DNA of 64,000 nucleotides from NCBI RefSeq assembly GCF_024298965.1, contig NZ_CP085193.1, positions 11,222,001 through 11,286,000 on the forward strand. Direction: 5' to 3'. Each line of letters opens with the position of its first letter. Position 1 is the stretch's first letter. A model generated the notes under the pieces. It saw only the letters and a program-made list of their open reading frames with translations, searched no databases and was not told the DNA's origin. Below are positions 6,849 to 12,487 of this stretch, one piece after another. The DNA comes from Streptomyces rapamycinicus NRRL 5491. Lineage in GTDB: Bacteria > Actinomycetota > Actinomycetes > Streptomycetales > Streptomycetaceae. The position numbers and the translations under genes were made by a program.

Positions 6849-7437
6849 CACCCGCCGACCACCCCGGTGCGATCAGGGGTCTCACGGCGCGCTGTTGATG
6901 CGGCTGGATTTTGGTACGGACCATTGACATATATGTTCGGGGGCGGTGTCATGGGGCCCGTCAGCTCTTGAGAGTGCCTCGGGTGGATGTCGTCATCCGG
7001 GGCCGGACCTCGGAGAGTTCCCCGTGAATGGACGTCCCGTCTCAGGGGTGTGGGCCGCTGCCGTGGCCACGCCGTCGCTGGGTCGATTATGGACGGACCG
7101 GGCCGCAGAGCCCGTGTCCGATGTGGAAGGTTGTCATGGTCGTGACAATCCATTCTTCCGTGTGCCCCCTCAGGTCGCGGCCGCGAAGGGCCTGAGCGGA
7201 CCGAGTCACGGTCCACCGTGGCAGGGCCACGGCGCATGACCTCTAGTGGATTCACCAGTTTTCCGTAGCACCTTTCCCGCCGCGCCATCACGCGGCACCT
7301 TCCCACGGGCCTCCCGCCCCAAGGGCGGCGGCGCGTCGCCCGTGCGTCACCACGCCCGATGACCGCCCGAAGCGCACGTTCCCGTGCGTCATCGGCGCGG
7401 TGGCATCCAATGTTCCGCCACGAAAGAGAGATGAGAC
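6849..7437. other. Long non-coding leader upstream of the chitinase locus
   Basis: A 589-bp gap with no convincing gene. One 97-codon frame exists but has no ribosome binding site and an unremarkable composition. It contains a TTGACA hexamer at 6924-6929 within the comparatively AT-rich stretch ATTGACATATATG, a weak -10 match (TGTCAT) 17 nt later, a perfect hexamer dyad at 7131-7148 and an imperfect TGG/CCA dyad near 7245-7259. The length suggests a complex control region or long untranslated leader for the secreted enzyme operon. Confidence 0.5.
7131..7148. promoter_or_regulatory. Inverted repeat TTGTCA-N6-TGACAA
   Basis: A perfect 6-bp dyad with a 6-nt spacer lies in the otherwise featureless leader, about 290 bp upstream of the chitinase start. 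The size and symmetry fit a repressor or activator half-site pair. No cognate regulator lies next to it. Confidence 0.4.
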
Positions 7438-8193
7438 ATGCCCATAAGACGTGCCCTCGTGGCCACGGCCGCGACGGCGGCGGCCGGAATATCGGCGCTC
7501 GCGCTTCCTCCTTCGGCCGCTGACGCGGCCTCCGGCGCGGCGCGGGACTCGTCGTCGGCCCAGGCGCAGGCCGCCGGCTTCGTGGTGAGCCGGGCCCAGT
7601 ACCAGCGGATGTTCCCGAACAAGAACGCGTTTTACACGTATGACGCGCTGGTCAGCGCGATGAACCGGTTCCCCGCCTTCGCCAAGACCGGTACGGATAC
7701 GGTCAAGAAGCAGGAGGCGGCGGCCTTTCTGGCCAACGTCGGCCATGAGACCGGTGGCCTCCGCCACATCGTGGAGCAGGACACCTCCAACTACCCGAAG
7801 TACTGCGACACGACGCGCCCCTACGGATGTCCGGCGGGGAAGGCCGCGTACTTCGGACGCGGGCCGATCCAGCTCAGCTGGAACTTCAACTACAAGGCGG
7901 CGGGCGACGCGCTGGGCGTCAATCTGCTCAACAAGCCGGGCCTGGTGCGGACGGACGCCGCCATCTCCTGGAAGACCGCGCTCTGGTACTGGACCACCCA
8001 GTCCGGGCCCGGCTCCATGCCCGCACACAAGGCCATGACCACCGGCGCCGGATTCGGGCAGACCATACGTGCCATCAATGGCGCGAAGGAGTGCAACGGG
8101 GCCAACCCGGCGCAGATGCAGGACCGGGTCAACCTCTACAAGAAGTTCACCAGCCTCCTCGGCGTCGCGCCGGGCGCCAATCTGACCTGCTGA
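7438..8193 (+). CDS. Secreted family 19 chitinase
   Basis: A 251-residue GH19 endochitinase hydrolysing beta-1,4-GlcNAc chains with inversion. A Sec signal peptide (about residues 1-31, ending ADA) is followed directly by the catalytic domain, with no chitin-binding module. The general acid is Glu104 in NVGHETGG and the general base Glu113, nine residues later, the spacing of bacterial GH19 enzymes. The YFGRGPIQLSWNFNY substrate-cleft signature and the NGAKECNG / C-terminal Cys follow. It is like the short, CBM-less GH19 chitinases of streptomycetes. It is the first gene of a run of four secreted proteins; the next start follows 22 bp after its stop. Confidence 0.93.
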   Translation: MPIRRALVATAATAAAGISALALPPSAADAASGAARDSSSAQAQAAGFVVSRAQYQRMFPNKNAFYTYDALVSAMNRFPAFAKTGTDTVKKQEAAAFLANVGHETGGLRHIVEQDTSNYPKYCDTTRPYGCPAGKAAYFGRGPIQLSWNFNYKAAGDALGVNLLNKPGLVRTDAAISWKTALWYWTTQSGPGSMPAHKAMTTGAGFGQTIRAINGAKECNGANPAQMQDRVNLYKKFTSLLGVAPGANLTC

Positions 8194-8215
8194 GCGACGT
8201 TCCCACGGAGGAGTC

Positions 8216-9013
8216 ATGCGCAGAATTCTGATCGGCCTGGCCACCGCGGCACTGGTGGTGCTGGCGGCCCTGCTGCCGACCGCGGGGACGAGCGCGGCCA
8301 CGAGCGTGGCGCTGCCGACCGGCAACGCACCCGCCGCGGCCAAGGCGACACTCGCCGCCAACCACACGGTCACCTTCGTCAATCACACCGGACGGAAGGT
8401 GTGGATCGGCAGCGCCGTCAATGCCGATGGCTCGAAGCAATTCGCCAAACTGCCCATCCTGGAACCCGGTCGGTCGGCGTCGGTGACGGTCCCCGAGAAC
8501 GCCGACCCCGGCCACTGGCGTGGAAAGTTCTTCGCCCGCCTGGGATGCACCGGCGCCTCGGGCAGCACCTTCCACTGCAAGGTGGGGGACTGCGGCAAGT
8601 TCGCCGACCGCTGTGAGCTGGGCGAGCAGCCCGTCAGCCTGGCCGAGTTCAATTTCGACACCAAGGACACGCTCGCTCCCTGGTACAACGTGAGCTACGT
8701 CAACGCGTTCTCCAACCCCATCACGATCGCCCCCAACAACCCCGCCGGTGGCGGAGGTTGCGGCACCCAGGGCTGCACTCAGAACCTGCTGCCGTTCTGC
8801 CCGGCCGCCAACCTCACCCGCTGGCCGGACGGCACGCCGATGCTGTGCACCAACCCCAACCGGGACGTGAAGACGCCGTACAGCAACGCGATCGCCTCAC
8901 GGTGCCCCAAGGCGTACGCCTACTCCAAGCAGGACCAGGAGCCCGGCAACCAGGTGATGCAGAACTGCGGTAAGTGCAGTGGCTTCACCGTGACCTTCAA
9001 CGCGGGGTCGTGA
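8216..9013 (+). CDS. Secreted thaumatin-like (PR-5 family) protein
   Basis: A 265-residue exported protein with the thaumatin fold. The signal peptide ends near residue 28-30 (TSAAT). The body starts VTFVNHTGRKVWIGSAV, as thaumatin-like proteins do. It contains GHWRGKFFARLGC, KVGDCGKFADRC, LAEFNFD, WYNVSYVNAFSNPI (the acidic-cleft strand region), GCGTQGCTQNLLPFCP, and the terminal SRCPKAYAYSKQDQ and GFTVTF. I count eleven Cys, fewer than the sixteen of long plant forms. Plant members bind beta-1,3-glucan and permeabilise fungi. A GGAGG site precedes the start. The next gene begins 2 bp after the stop, so expression is coupled to a beta-1,3-glucanase. Confidence 0.9.
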   Translation: MRRILIGLATAALVVLAALLPTAGTSAATSVALPTGNAPAAAKATLAANHTVTFVNHTGRKVWIGSAVNADGSKQFAKLPILEPGRSASVTVPENADPGHWRGKFFARLGCTGASGSTFHCKVGDCGKFADRCELGEQPVSLAEFNFDTKDTLAPWYNVSYVNAFSNPITIAPNNPAGGGGCGTQGCTQNLLPFCPAANLTRWPDGTPMLCTNPNRDVKTPYSNAIASRCPKAYAYSKQDQEPGNQVMQNCGKCSGFTVTFNAGS

Positions 9014-9015
9014 CC

Positions 9016-9837
9016 ATGCGCAGGATGCGACTTCTCGCCGTACTGCTGGCGGTGGTGACCCTGCTGACCGCGGGAAGCCAGACGGGCGCCGGCGCGTCCA
9101 CGGCCGCGGTGAAGAAGAAGGGCGTCAGCGCCTGGAAGTTCAACGGGGTCACGGCGGCGATGTCCGATGCCAAGGTCGGCTGGTTCTACACCTGGGCCTC
9201 GGGCAAACAGCAGATCCAGGCTCCGGCCGGGGTCGAATTCGTGCCCATGATCTGGGGTCCCGGCTCGGTGACCGACGCCGAACTCAACCAGGCCAAGAGT
9301 CAGGGCACGACCCTGCTCGGCTTCAACGAACCGGACATGGCGGGCCAGGCCAATATGACCGTCGCCAAGGCGCTCGATCTGTGGCCCCGGCTCCAGTCGA
9401 CCGGTATGCGGCTCGGCGCGCCCGCGGTGGCCTACGGCGGCGATGTCGCCGGGGGCTGGCTCGACCGCTTCATGAAGGGCGCCGCCGACCGCGACTACAA
9501 GGTGGATTTCATCCCCCTGCACTGGTACGGCGCCGACTTCGACGCCACCCGCGCGACCGAACAGCTGCGCGGTTATCTCCAGGCCACCCACAACCGCTAC
9601 AACAAGCCGATCTGGCTCACCGAATACGCGCTGATCGACTTCTCGACCGGTACCCCGAGGTATCCGACCCCGGCCCAGCAGGCCGCGTTCGTGAAGAAGT
9701 CCACCGCCATGCTGCAAGGCCTGTCCTTCGTCCAGCGGTACGCGTGGTTCACGCTCTCCGCGGACCGCGGCGGCACCGGTCTCTACAACGGCGCGACGCC
9801 AAACCAGATCGGCACCGCCTACCGCGCGGCCGGCTGA
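9016..9837 (+). CDS. Secreted beta-1,3-glucanase-like enzyme (GH128-type)
   Basis: A 273-residue exported TIM-barrel glycosidase of the Asl1-like / GH128 type, predicted to cut beta-1,3-glucan. Signal peptide about residues 1-28. The acid/base is Glu105 in LLGFNEPDMAG and the nucleophile Glu203 in PIWLTEYALIDF. The barrel begins KKGVSAWKFNG and has PMIWG and DFIPLHWYG strands. ATG 9016 is used; upstream in-frame codons overlap the thaumatin-like gene. The 2-bp gap to that gene indicates tight coupling. No carbohydrate-binding module. The exact linkage is family knowledge, not demonstrated here. Confidence 0.88.
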   Translation: MRRMRLLAVLLAVVTLLTAGSQTGAGASTAAVKKKGVSAWKFNGVTAAMSDAKVGWFYTWASGKQQIQAPAGVEFVPMIWGPGSVTDAELNQAKSQGTTLLGFNEPDMAGQANMTVAKALDLWPRLQSTGMRLGAPAVAYGGDVAGGWLDRFMKGAADRDYKVDFIPLHWYGADFDATRATEQLRGYLQATHNRYNKPIWLTEYALIDFSTGTPRYPTPAQQAAFVKKSTAMLQGLSFVQRYAWFTLSADRGGTGLYNGATPNQIGTAYRAAG

Positions 9838-9905
9838 GACAAGGCCACTCGCGCACGCCACACCACTCACACCACATCATGACAACCGAAACGAGGTCCT
9901 CCGCC

Positions 9906-10340
9906 ATGCGCAAGGCAACGCTGATCGGCCGACTGGCGGTCGGAGCCGCCGCACTGACCGCCGTAGTGACCGTCGCCCCGACGAGCACCGCGGCCACCAG
10001 CGACACCCCGCCGCCCGGGCAGAACTGCTGGGCCACGCACTACGGGTACATACCGCCCGGTGCCTACACCGCCAGCGGCGAACTCTTCGACAACAACGCG
10101 AACACCGTCGCCACCTCCCTCAGCCGCAGCCCGCAGCTGCCGTTCGGCACCAAGGTGAAGGTCACCAACGTGGCCAACGGCAAGTCACTGGTCGTGCGCG
10201 TCAACGACCGCGGCACCTTCGGCTGGACGCCGTCCGTGCCCAAGTGTCTGGACCTGACCGACGGCGCCTACTCCCGGCTCGGCGGAGTCCTCAATCCCGA
10301 CTCGGGCCACATCGTGGTCAAGGAAAAAATCGTGAGGTGA
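9906..10340 (+). CDS. Secreted double-psi beta-barrel (barwin/RlpA-like) protein
   Basis: A 144-residue exported protein. A signal peptide (about 1-30) is followed by one RlpA/barwin-type double-psi barrel: NCWATHYG, YTASGELFDNN, PFGTKVKVTNVANGKSLVVRVNDRGTF and CLDLTDGAYSRLGG. The conserved Asp of NDRG is present. No SPOR domain, so it is not a classical septal RlpA; the layout is closer to microbial barwin/expansin-like proteins that bind or loosen polysaccharide. The ATG at 9906 has GAGG upstream and gives an intact signal peptide; nine codons earlier is a weaker alternative. It is the last gene of the four-gene run, followed by a terminator hairpin. Confidence 0.85.
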   Translation: MRKATLIGRLAVGAAALTAVVTVAPTSTAATSDTPPPGQNCWATHYGYIPPGAYTASGELFDNNANTVATSLSRSPQLPFGTKVKVTNVANGKSLVVRVNDRGTFGWTPSVPKCLDLTDGAYSRLGGVLNPDSGHIVVKEKIVR

Positions 10341-10357
10341 GAGGGTATTTGGTGAAG

Positions 10358-10389
10358 GATGTGGGGCGCCGGTTCCGGCGCTCCACATC
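10358..10389 (+). terminator. Strong intrinsic-type hairpin ending the secreted-protein run
   Basis: Fifteen-base arms at 10358-10372 and 10375-10389 pair over their whole length with one G-T wobble, around a TT centre. It lies 18 bp after the barwin-like stop codon. It probably insulates the four secreted genes from the kinase gene downstream. Confidence 0.75.
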
Positions 10390-10555
10390 GGCCCCCTGAC
10401 GCCCGGCTCGCGAAGCGACCGTCGTGCGCCGGAGGCTTCCCTCTTTCCGGGGGCTGTCCGCCGGAAGCGCTACCCACTGACCTCGCGGGCAAGTACTCTC
10501 CGTGGCGACACTGGAACGTAACGGGTGATGAAGCGGGGTAGCGGGGGTGCGGGTG

Positions 10556-12487
10556 ATGGCGGAGGCCGGTGACAAGGTCGCCGACCGATATCTCCTCCAG
10601 GAGCCCATCGGGAGAGGTGGGATGGGCGTCGTCTGGCTGGCGCACGATGAACTGCTGGACCGCCAGGTCGCGGTGAAGTGTGCCCGTCCGGACGACGACC
10701 GCGCGGTGGGGCGCCTGACCAACGAGGCGCGCAACGCCGCACGGCTGCACCATCCGCACATCGTCTCGGTGTTCGACTTCGTGGACGAGGGCGAGATCTG
10801 CTGGATCGTCATGGAGTACGTGTCCGGGGGCAGCCTCGCGGACATGGTGCGCGCCCGTGTCGCGCTCCCTCCGGAGGAGGCGGCCGCCATCGGCTGCCAG
10901 ATCGCCGCCGCGCTGGCGAAGTCGCACGCCGAGGGCGTGGTGCACGGCGATGTCACCCCGGAGAACGTCCTGATCACCGAGGACGGGGTCGCCAAGCTGA
11001 CCGACTTCGGCATCTCCCGGGCGCTGTGGAGCGAGGCCACCATGACCCAGACGGGCGGGGTGCGCGGCAAACCGCCGTATCTGCCGCCCGAGGTGGCCAG
11101 GGGAGAGGCGGCCGACCGGAAGTCCGATGTCTTCTCACTGGGCGCGACCCTCTACGCGGCGATCGAGGGGCGGTCCCCGTACGGCGAGGCATCGCATCCC
11201 ATGGCCTATGTGGCGCGGGCCATCGAGGGCTATATCGAGACCCCGCACCGGGCCGGTCCGCTGGCGGACGCGCTCACCAAGCTGCTGCATCTGGAGCCGA
11301 GGCGGCGCCCCGCCGCCGACCAGGCCGTACGGCTGCTGCGACGGGTGGCGCCGTCGTCCACGCCGATCGAGGACACCGAGGGCCCGCACGACGGCGACAC
11401 GCTGGACCGCACCCCCTTCACGATGCGCCTGGTGCCGCCGTCCGTCCGGGGGGCCCGGCGCCGCCCGGGCCGCCGGGTGGTCATCACCGCGGCCGCGCTG
11501 GTCACCGCCGCGGTCCTGGTGGGCTGGGCCACCCTCTTCGGCCCCTGGGGCGGCGGGCGCTCCGACGAGAGCGGCGGGTCAGGGAAGGACGGCGGGCGTG
11601 GCACGTCCGGTACGGCCGACTCGGCGACCCGGACGGGACCGGCCGGCACCATAGGCGACGCGCGGACCGCCGATCCCTGCAAGTTGCTCAACCCGGCCTC
11701 GCTCAGCCGCTTCGGCGAGACCGTGCTCGACCCGGACTACGGCGAGATCGACCGGTGCGATGTCCTGCTGCAGGGCGAGAGCGGCGATGACATCGCCGAC
11801 GTCCAGCTCAACTTCAGCGCCGATCCGCCGGAGCCGGGTGGCGATGTGCCCACCAGAAGGGTCGGCAATGTCACCGTCGGCGCGTATCAGCGCGATGGCG
11901 ACGAGTGCCTGCGGAACATCGCGTCCGCCGACCACAAGCAGATCTGGATCATCACCGAGCGGCTCGACGCCCCGGCGCCCGACCCCTGCCAGCTGGGCGA
12001 CGCCGCCACCGACTACGTGGTCAGCGTGCTGGACCGCGGCCAGGTCCCCCGGCGTTCCGGGCAGCCGGTGGCGAGCTCCCTGCTCCGGGGACACGCATGC
12101 CGGGTGCTGGACGGCGATGAGCTCAAGCGGGTCGCCGGTGTCCGGGTGGCGGACCGCGACCCGGGCTTCGGGGACTGGCAGTGCGAGTGGACGGACGGCT
12201 CGGGCGACGCGGGGGTGAAGGTGGTGTTCAACCGGGACAACCAGTTCACCACGGACGACGGACAGTCGGCGGTCATCGCCGGCAGGCGGGGCTCGGTGTC
12301 GCCGAATGAGTGGGACGACGACTCATGCCTGGTCCGGGTGTTGCACCGGTCGTACCGCAACTCCCTCGGCGACGACACCGTCGAGTTCATGTCGTTGAAC
12401 GTCTACGGACCGGAGTCCACCGGAAAGGTCTGCAAGACCGCCAAGGCGCTCGCCGCCGCGGCCGCGAAGAAACTCCCGGCATCATGA
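10556..12487 (+). CDS. Membrane Ser/Thr protein kinase with altered catalytic loop
   Basis: A 643-residue Hanks-type kinase. The N-terminal kinase domain has GRGGMGVVW (P-loop), VAVK (Lys41), the alpha-C Glu in TNEARNAARL, DFGISRA and PPEVARG. The catalytic loop reads HGDVTPEN instead of HRDxKPxN: Arg is Gly (a non-RD kinase) and the conserved Lys is Thr, while Asp and Asn remain. A single TM helix (about 307-327, VVITAAALVTAAVLVGW) leads to a Gly/Ser-rich linker and an extracellular region of about 300 residues with paired Cys, likely two related sensor domains, and no PASTA repeats. The ATG at 10556 follows GGGGGTG; a GTG three codons earlier is possible. It shares an ATGA overlap with the FHA gene, the expected phosphopeptide-binding partner. 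Confidence 0.88.
   Translation: MAEAGDKVADRYLLQEPIGRGGMGVVWLAHDELLDRQVAVKCARPDDDRAVGRLTNEARNAARLHHPHIVSVFDFVDEGEICWIVMEYVSGGSLADMVRARVALPPEEAAAIGCQIAAALAKSHAEGVVHGDVTPENVLITEDGVAKLTDFGISRALWSEATMTQTGGVRGKPPYLPPEVARGEAADRKSDVFSLGATLYAAIEGRSPYGEASHPMAYVARAIEGYIETPHRAGPLADALTKLLHLEPRRRPAADQAVRLLRRVAPSSTPIEDTEGPHDGDTLDRTPFTMRLVPPSVRGARRRPGRRVVITAAALVTAAVLVGWATLFGPWGGGRSDESGGSGKDGGRGTSGTADSATRTGPAGTIGDARTADPCKLLNPASLSRFGETVLDPDYGEIDRCDVLLQGESGDDIADVQLNFSADPPEPGGDVPTRRVGNVTVGAYQRDGDECLRNIASADHKQIWIITERLDAPAPDPCQLGDAATDYVVSVLDRGQVPRRSGQPVASSLLRGHACRVLDGDELKRVAGVRVADRDPGFGDWQCEWTDGSGDAGVKVVFNRDNQFTTDDGQSAVIAGRRGSVSPNEWDDDSCLVRVLHRSYRNSLGDDTVEFMSLNVYGPESTGKVCKTAKALAAAAAKKLPAS

Follow-up and report, generated by a model that had tools for sequence, protein, structure and literature searches.

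In plants, an acidic cleft with the residues REDDD is associated with the antifungal action of thaumatin-like proteins (TLPs) (PMC3048497). In fungi, according to a review, beta-1,3-glucanase activity is typical of TLPs, and those of Puccinia graminis frequently occur fused to glycosyl hydrolase (GH) domains, with a cleft that is altered (PMC13148976); these fusions are fungal, and the passage on them specifies no GH family and mentions no arrangement as adjacent genes. Since such TLPs already come with GH domains, a TLP–GH fusion as such is less novel than it might appear. Two further systems are close to the locus presented below: a GH128 enzyme carrying a CBM6 module that breaks up curdlan gel and increases hydrolysis (PMC10956234), and the chitinase promoters of Streptomyces, with a dre consensus or direct repeats and TGGTC-type operators (PMC6097792). 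Bacterial thaumatins are known from annotation, but on their function a literature search from which subscription papers were largely missing returned no paper.

The window, that is, the whole stretch of DNA analysed, comprises 64,000 nt of Streptomyces rapamycinicus NRRL 5491 (NZ_CP085193.1, 11,222,001–11,286,000, forward strand). Between positions 7438 and 10340 it encodes, all on the + strand and in this order, a GH19 chitinase (7438–8193), a TLP (8216–9013), a GH128 glucanase (9016–9837) and a double-psi-barrel (DPBB) protein (9906–10340), separated by 22, 2 and 68 bp, respectively. The corresponding Pfam profiles (Glyco_hydro_19, Thaumatin, Glyco_hydro_cc and DPBB_1) all score above their curated cut-offs, and the four N-termini, judged by eye and without a predictor, resemble Sec signal peptides. 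The four-gene row is thus confirmed as real, as an earlier note on this DNA had claimed, together with its gaps of 2 to 68 bp and the 2-bp spacing between the end of the TLP gene at 9013 and the GH128 ATG at 9016; the interpretation which that note placed on the row, a plant-like defence set of PR proteins, is partly supported. The 12.47-Mb genome encodes one TLP, one PF11790 protein, two GH19 and two DPBB_1 proteins. With so few copies, the presence of all four families together in a 2.9-kb segment is not due to chance. The set is under purifying selection, with dN/dS values of 0.07–0.30 in 16 gene comparisons between the window and five relatives.

For the two enzymes of the row, the enzyme type and the catalytic residues announced beforehand hold. 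The GH19 protein (251 aa; PF00182, 160.5 bits against a cut-off of 25.5) retains the catalytic pair E104 and E113. Its closest solved structures are the S. coelicolor ChiG-type enzyme 2cjl (204 residues aligned, E 5e-100) and chitinase C, 1wvu (220 residues, E 3e-96), from which it differs in its genomic partners and in consisting of a predicted secreted catalytic domain only. The GH128 protein (273 aa from ATG 9016; PF11790, 170.3 bits) is a predicted beta-1,3-glucanase of the type of 6uaq, the nearest solved GH128 (E 1e-109), which we take to be AmGH128_I. Both share the core and the two catalytic glutamates, acid/base and nucleophile, which in the window are E105 and E203 and align to the residues changed in 6uat and 6ufl. 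What sets the window enzyme apart is the position of its gene, 2 bp behind that of a TLP, while a related clade fuses TLP and GH128.

The TLP itself (265 aa) scores 100 bits against PF00314, with a cut-off of 27.4, and therefore belongs to the same family as the plant PR-5 proteins. Its cleft, whose columns were set from an alignment to 2ahn using what we presume to be the numbering of the plant positions, reads KENND in place of REDDD, with both middle aspartates replaced by asparagine and the arginine by lysine. Its 11 cysteines, against 16 (eight disulfides) in the plant proteins, are invariant in the window and in 25 relatives hand-picked for spread from 120 listed homologues. In both features the protein departs from plant-type antifungal PR-5, and given the different cleft and cysteine number the plant mechanism is not simply transferable. 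The nearest solved structure, 7p22 (‘Thaumatin pathogenesis-like protein’, E 3e-101), differs from the window TLP at the first of the two middle cleft positions, with aspartate instead of asparagine; a literature search aimed at 7p22 found no paper on that structure.

Alternatively, the TLP could be a beta-1,3-glucanase in its own right, complementing GH128 by hydrolysis rather than by binding, as the typical activity of fungal TLPs would suggest (PMC13148976). Consistent with this, the cleft glutamate is conserved in all 75 rows of a TLP alignment and the last aspartate in all 70 rows with a letter there; against it, the arginine and both middle aspartates are changed in the window, and asparagine is common at both of the latter positions (third position, 50/75; fourth, 63/75). 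We regard this alternative as very improbable. The alignment covers 75 of 80 loci, with L064, L070, L105, L107 and L121 left out for a TLP match that was absent, short or interrupted by stops; three rows are second copies (L004/L063, L009/L078 and L011/L122), which were dropped from the 72-row clade analysis, where L105 and L121 likewise have no row.

Comparison across genomes points to a smaller conserved unit than the four genes. Among 38 bacterial-type TLP loci from 392 Streptomyces genomes, 36 are accompanied on their own strand by a GH128 no more than 3 kb away (in one case a 53-residue remnant), and in 18 the two form a single fused frame; a Pfam scan of two of these 18 fusions revealed both domains in each. 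A separate, plant-like TLP clade (L065–L070; 8 of 46 Streptomyces TLP matches) was set apart from the 38, and GH128 proteins lie nearby in five of its six fetched stretches. In a second family, GH128 is linked to 15 of 26 TLP loci, in both gene orders, and the other 11 show no GH128 within ~8 kb on either side. GH19 is found near the TLP in only 7/38 Streptomyces and 1/26 second-family loci, several relatives having a GH19 that is absent or broken, while a CAP (PR-1-family) protein lies within 3 kb in six of the 26 and is the additional member of one distant five-gene set. The ring at 3–8 kb from these 38 and 26 TLPs contains a DPBB protein in one and two loci, respectively, and no GH128, GH19 or CAP. 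Presence in the genome follows the same pattern, with GH128 in 39/41 Streptomyces genomes with a TLP versus 6/351 without, and in 24/26 versus 13/174 in the second family, counts that are not independent tests, as the genomes are related. All four genes occur in the same order in six of the 38 loci, including the window and one locus with a broken GH19 (G096), and one more locus (G326) carries the four genes in a different order; the order is thus conserved beyond this strain, and the proposed set does not fail on that account. A phylum-wide draw of 396 genomes contained TLPs in three, the same three that have GH128, and is uninformative beyond the genus, since all are Streptomyces. Taken together, TLP plus GH128, often fused, is the conserved core, with GH19 and DPBB as accessories; the earlier view of four genes as one coherent module holds for the coherence of a fungal-wall gene set, the conserved unit itself being narrower.

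The DPBB protein (144 aa, single domain) had been compared with barwin, a resemblance at the level of fold at most. At E ≤ 0.01 it matched only DPBB_1 and a sub-threshold ACC_epsilon, and its best fold match is the RlpA-like PA4485 (4avr), barwin-like structures being weaker; its other close known folds are kiwellin, loosenin, the Streptomyces papain inhibitor (SPI) and expansin. By sequence, it is best described as RlpA-like, not barwin. Many of its relatives are named ‘septal ring lytic transglycosylase RlpA’ in databases, and the row could accordingly be read as a device for growth or remodelling of the cell's own wall, with the DPBB protein as RlpA transglycosylase and the other three as bystanders. 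The name and the 4avr match favour such a role, but the protein reaches only 55 bits against the TIGR00413 (RlpA) cut-off of 82.15, and it keeps the aspartate of the RlpA NDRG motif while the column that we take to be the catalytic histidine is replaced. That column is not histidine in 20 of 29 aligned rows (the window plus 28 of 120 listed homologues, hand-picked for spread); other RlpA relatives have the histidine, whereas DPBBs of the window type carry a five-residue insert there. Moreover, some relatives are fused to ricin-B-type (4/120 listed) or PF02839 domains (2/120 listed), and the substrates of GH128 and GH19 are absent from the actinomycete wall. The transglycosylase role is thus disfavoured, and own-wall remodelling is hardly credible as an explanation of the row. 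The SPI model NF041659 gave no hit on the window protein; its cut-off is passed by two other TLP-linked DPBBs, those of L117 and L010.

Upstream of the genes lies a feature on which the earlier note was silent, namely a candidate promoter on the + strand (6912–6952), ~510 bp before the first start codon. A dre-like operator, TGGTACGGACCA (6912–6923), directly abuts a -35 box, TTGACA (6924–6929), followed after a 17-nt spacer by a poor -10-like hexamer, TGTCAT (6947–6952); a sigma-70 scan called no promoter. The element aligns in the window and four relatives and precedes 15 of 24 distinct unfused Streptomyces TLP–GH128 loci (L004/L063 and L009/L078 counted once each; L047 and L064, TLPs without GH128, excluded), a rate that is biased, as eight of the 15 come from the similarity draw (two of these were drawn for the genus as well); within the genus draw, the figure is 9/18. 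It is found in none of the 18 fused and none of the 26 second-family loci. Its sole other exact copy in the genome lies upstream of a GH18 chitinase, and four more sites occur at two mismatches, where a reversed control pattern gives two. The 12-mer dre core was rejected as evidence when taken alone: the window operator has three mismatches to it (one or two in 12 of the 15 element loci), and the 64-kb window contains 39 sites with ≤3 mismatches (shuffles, mean 14), so that the regulatory case rests on the longer element. The TGGTC-type operator, which here adjoins the -35 box, is shared with the chitinase promoters of PMC6097792, but that of the window is single, imperfect and placed before a TLP–GH128 set. 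A conserved leader of ~480 nt follows (6953–7437, +), aligned with four relatives and containing an inverted repeat, TTGTCA-N6-TGACAA (7131–7148); the whole stretch 6849–7437 shows a mean column identity of 83% over 676 columns in the window and these relatives, and Rfam had no match in 6850–10560. At the other end, folding revealed a 14-bp hairpin (10358–10389, +) within an 80-nt stretch of -43 kcal/mol (z -2.9). A hairpin had previously been reported here as a terminator with 15-bp arms; the label is weaker than claimed, since a T-run is lacking and the terminator scan does not list it; nor does the repeat search.

Altogether, the locus is probably a secreted, chitin-responsive operon for the degradation of fungal walls, built on the TLP–GH128 pair. 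Chitin breakdown products would lift repression by a DasR-type regulator bound at the dre-like operator by the -35 box, and a single transcript, suggested by the short gaps and by an element seen solely upstream of the set, would yield four exported proteins. GH19 would then cut chitin and GH128 beta-1,3-glucan, as family and catalytic residues suggest, while the TLP, probably without a plant-type glucanase role, may bind beta-1,3-glucan as a non-catalytic partner and help GH128 to reach or loosen it, as linkage and fusion suggest. The DPBB protein could serve as a wall-binding, wall-loosening or shielding accessory, and the products would feed the bacterium and may damage or kill fungi. That the set is instead a specialised weapon against fungi, on a par with the PR proteins of plants, with a TLP attacking membrane or wall and four products synergising on live hyphae rather than in nutrition, seems unlikely. 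The families do parallel PR-3, PR-5 and PR-2 function, the CAP proteins and SPI-type DPBBs near other TLPs point the same way, and published work describes a GH19 enzyme of S. coelicolor as potently antifungal (PMC6097792) and reports yeast lysis by Streptomyces with glucanases and chitinases (PMC13170338); however, this TLP lacks the acidic cleft tied to antifungal action, and a chitinase-type promoter element fits nutrition equally well.

Beyond the fungal-wall operon, a broader proposal can be offered only tentatively, and with rather less than even confidence: that actinobacterial TLPs are distinct non-catalytic auxiliaries dedicated to GH128, whose thaumatin fold binds or disrupts glucan, acting as neighbours in trans or domains in cis, to which chitinase, DPBB and CAP proteins were repeatedly and independently added in a plant-PR-like manner. 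The recurrent mixture of GH19, TLP, GH128, DPBB and CAP would then represent an assembly convergent with the plant PR proteins. Their linkage and fusion with GH128 suggest a likely role for bacterial thaumatins, a little-studied group, that can be tested directly, and prompt one to ask what the thaumatin fold adds in a protein without the plant cleft; should the TLP boost GH128 on insoluble glucan, it would be a helper of a new kind, loosening glucan for enzymes that attack fungal walls. Among known systems, yeast predation by Streptomyces lavendulae likewise directs secreted glucanases and chitinases at the yeast wall, and the word ‘thaumatin’ occurs 0 times in the main text of the paper on it (PMC13170338). 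A precedent for the proposed TLP–GH128 pair is CBM6E, in which GH128 is likewise coupled to another module that binds beta-1,3-glucan without hydrolysing it; there the partner is a CBM6 and the enzyme belongs to GH128 subgroup II, whereas in the window the partner is a TLP (PMC10956234).

The four genes lie in a row on the forward strand, and their positions and strand, described earlier from the sequence alone, are borne out by the open reading frames and by Pfam family matches above the curated cut-offs: a GH19 chitinase (7438-8193; nearest solved structures 2cjl and 1wvu), a thaumatin-like protein (TLP; 8216-9013; nearest 7p22), a GH128 beta-1,3-glucanase (9016-9837; nearest 6uaq) and a double-psi-barrel (DPBB) protein (9906-10340; nearest 4avr), separated by gaps of 22, 2 and 68 bp. 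The catalytic glutamate pair of the chitinase, E104/E113, is conserved in 14 of the 15 alignments examined, the remaining one not covering these positions, and each of the GH128 glutamates, E105 and E203, in 73 of 75, a count that includes doubled loci and in which the remainder again lacks coverage. Signal peptides of the four products were assessed by eye alone. As for the terminator proposed in the earlier note, folding does give a 14-bp hairpin 3' of the DPBB gene, the last of the set, but it lacks the T-run required by the terminator scan. The 12.47-Mb single-contig genome encodes only one TLP, one PF11790 protein, two GH19 and two DPBB_1 proteins, and one of each lies within this 2.9-kb stretch; with so few family members, the grouping is not due to chance. 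The genes are also under purifying selection, with dN/dS values of 0.07-0.30 (16 comparisons, five relatives).

Among 392 Streptomyces genomes, TLPs were found in 41 (46 matches), relatives of the window's GH128 (E<=1e-20) in 45 and both together in 39, a co-occurrence for which Fisher P values overstate the evidence, as the genomes are related. The stretches around these matches were fetched and scanned for neighbour families. Eight TLP matches belong to a distant plant-like clade and were set apart; in the other 38 loci (37 genomes, window included), the search for conserved gene order suggested earlier recovered GH19-TLP-GH128-DPBB in five, and in one more with an added CAP gene, whose family includes plant PR-1. 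TLP-GH128 accounts for 20 loci, 18 of them as a single fused reading frame (both domains present in the two scanned with Pfam), and TLP-GH128-DPBB for eight; one locus has TLP-GH19-GH128, its DPBB 3.3 kb from the TLP, and in one more the TLP-GH128 pair is accompanied by a further GH128 encoded on the opposite strand. The two TLPs without a partner comprise one on a 4.4-kb contig and one that is broken. The GH128 match of genome G384 is a 53-residue remnant, and the GH19 of G096 is broken. Decay is visible as a GH128 remnant in locus L054, a broken GH19 in L060 and broken TLPs in L121 and L064, while several frame breaks in L005 may represent assembly errors. Two Streptomyces genomes without TLP (L091, L092) have a CAP gene immediately upstream of GH128.

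A phylum-wide draw returned TLP/GH128 in the genus Streptomyces alone; in 200 genomes drawn from the family of Goodfellowiella (locus L011), TLP occurs in 26, GH128 in 37 and both in 24, and the caution on P values applies here too. Within 3 kb of these 26 TLP loci lie GH128 in 15 (before the TLP in ten, after it in five), DPBB in 12, CAP in six and GH19 in one, with a weak GH18-like match on the opposite strand in two and no partner in four. In a ring control 3-8 kb from the TLP, GH128, GH19 and CAP are all absent from the 38 + 26 loci, and DPBB appears in 1/38 Streptomyces and 2/26 second-family loci. Locus L117 carries five genes on one strand, DPBB-GH128-GH19-TLP-CAP (7430-10809), its CAP matching a PR-1-related human chain, and an Actinomadura locus (L010) combines GH128, DPBB, two LuxR-type regulators and TLP with GH19 on the opposite strand. 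The DPBBs of L117 (10402-10809, minus strand) and L010 (999-1469) pass the papain-inhibitor model NF041659 and could possibly serve as a protease shield for secreted enzymes.

In a TLP tree of 72 rows, built by a quick method that leaves 23 of 69 inner branches unresolved, all 18 fusions fall inside one supported group (99*), together with two unfused rows. Outside the plant-like clade nine arrangement changes are required; thus, adjacency was kept or remade across rearrangements. Near plant-like Streptomyces TLPs, a GH128 protein is encoded on the opposite strand in five of six fetched stretches (L065-L067, L069, L070), and L068 has none within its 10 kb. Three of these five carry sigma-70 region 2 at the N-terminus. 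The architecture of sigma-70 region 2, hydrophobic stretch (membrane-like by eye in L066) and C-terminal GH128 is seen in L066 (8817-10679), L067 (8586-10553, minus strand), L069 (5871-7838, minus strand) and L133-L138; one test recovered it in eight of nine proteins, and L066 was recovered separately. Those beside plant-like TLPs may possibly be glucan-sensing sigma factors.

Upstream of the window set, TGGTACGGACCATTGACA at 6912-6929 comprises a dre-like operator and the -35 box that it abuts. Within the full set of loci then fetched, which had been selected by TLP or by GH128, the element TGGTNC[AG]GACNATTGACA stands upstream of TLP sets only, in 15 of 24 distinct unfused Streptomyces TLP-GH128 loci (9/18 in the genus draw alone), and is absent from fused and second-family loci. 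Sites with at most two mismatches from TGGTCTAGACCA occur in 15 of 74 upstream stretches, three being second-family sites without the long element, versus about 1.9% of random 553-bp draws from the same loci. The window's genome holds two exact copies of the element, plus four sites that deviate from it at two positions (2 for the reversed control pattern). The first exact copy belongs to the window set; the second starts 42 bp ahead of the longest open reading frame for a GH18 chitinase and is followed by another repeat, ACTGGTCTAGTCC. A review gives the dre consensus as A(G/C)TGGTCTAGACCA(G/C)T; in its account, there are direct-repeat promoters that chitin induces and glucose represses, and chitinase transcripts change only slightly upon dasR deletion (PMC6097792), so that additional control must exist. 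We infer DasR control of the four-gene set; speaking against it are the three positions at which the window's copy deviates, the poor -10 box and the length of the leader, about 480 nt. An inverted repeat, TTGTCATGGTCGTGACAA, lies inside the conserved leader (7131-7148), both arms being intact in three of four aligned relatives.

At the positions of the REDDD cleft, as assigned from an alignment with 2ahn and from residue numbering, the window TLP reads K-E-N-N-D. Across 75 aligned TLPs (five plant-like, three second copies of loci), the first position is K in 57, T in 10 and R in 8, the second Glu in all 75, the third N in 50 and D in 25, the fourth N in 63, D in 8, E in 3 and S in 1, and the last D in 70 with five gaps. 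In eukaryotic TLPs, this conserved acidic cleft is tied to antifungal or lytic action (PMC3048497, PMC13148976). The window TLP would more probably act in binding than in plant-type catalysis. Eleven cysteines are invariant across it and 25 relatives, whereas typical plant TLPs have 16 (PMC3048497). Seven of 120 relatives listed, from other actinomycetes and metagenomes (P0058, P0067, P0073, P0082, P0108, P0110, P0119), fuse the TLP to a ricin-B-type domain, again pairing it with a carbohydrate-binding part.

We favour a chitin-responsive wall-degrading set, in which walls would be degraded in response to chitin and the TLP would be the glucan-binding partner of GH128. The rivals are a weapon equivalent to plant PR proteins, as in the antifungal role first proposed, a TLP with glucanase activity of its own, and remodelling of the bacterium's own wall. 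Lysis of yeast by Streptomyces through secreted glucanases and chitinases has been reported (PMC13170338), which fits nutrition or attack alike. In literature searches judged by title and abstract opening, with subscription papers mostly out of reach, no paper emerged on this set or on bacterial TLP-GH128 fusions. A review describes fusions of certain fungal TLPs with glycosyl hydrolase domains (PMC13148976), and therefore a TLP-GH fusion is not in itself without precedent. For the favoured chitin-responsive set, a working precedent for a glucan-binding partner of GH128 is offered by a GH128-CBM6 enzyme, whose CBM6 disrupts the curdlan gel and boosts hydrolysis (PMC10956234).
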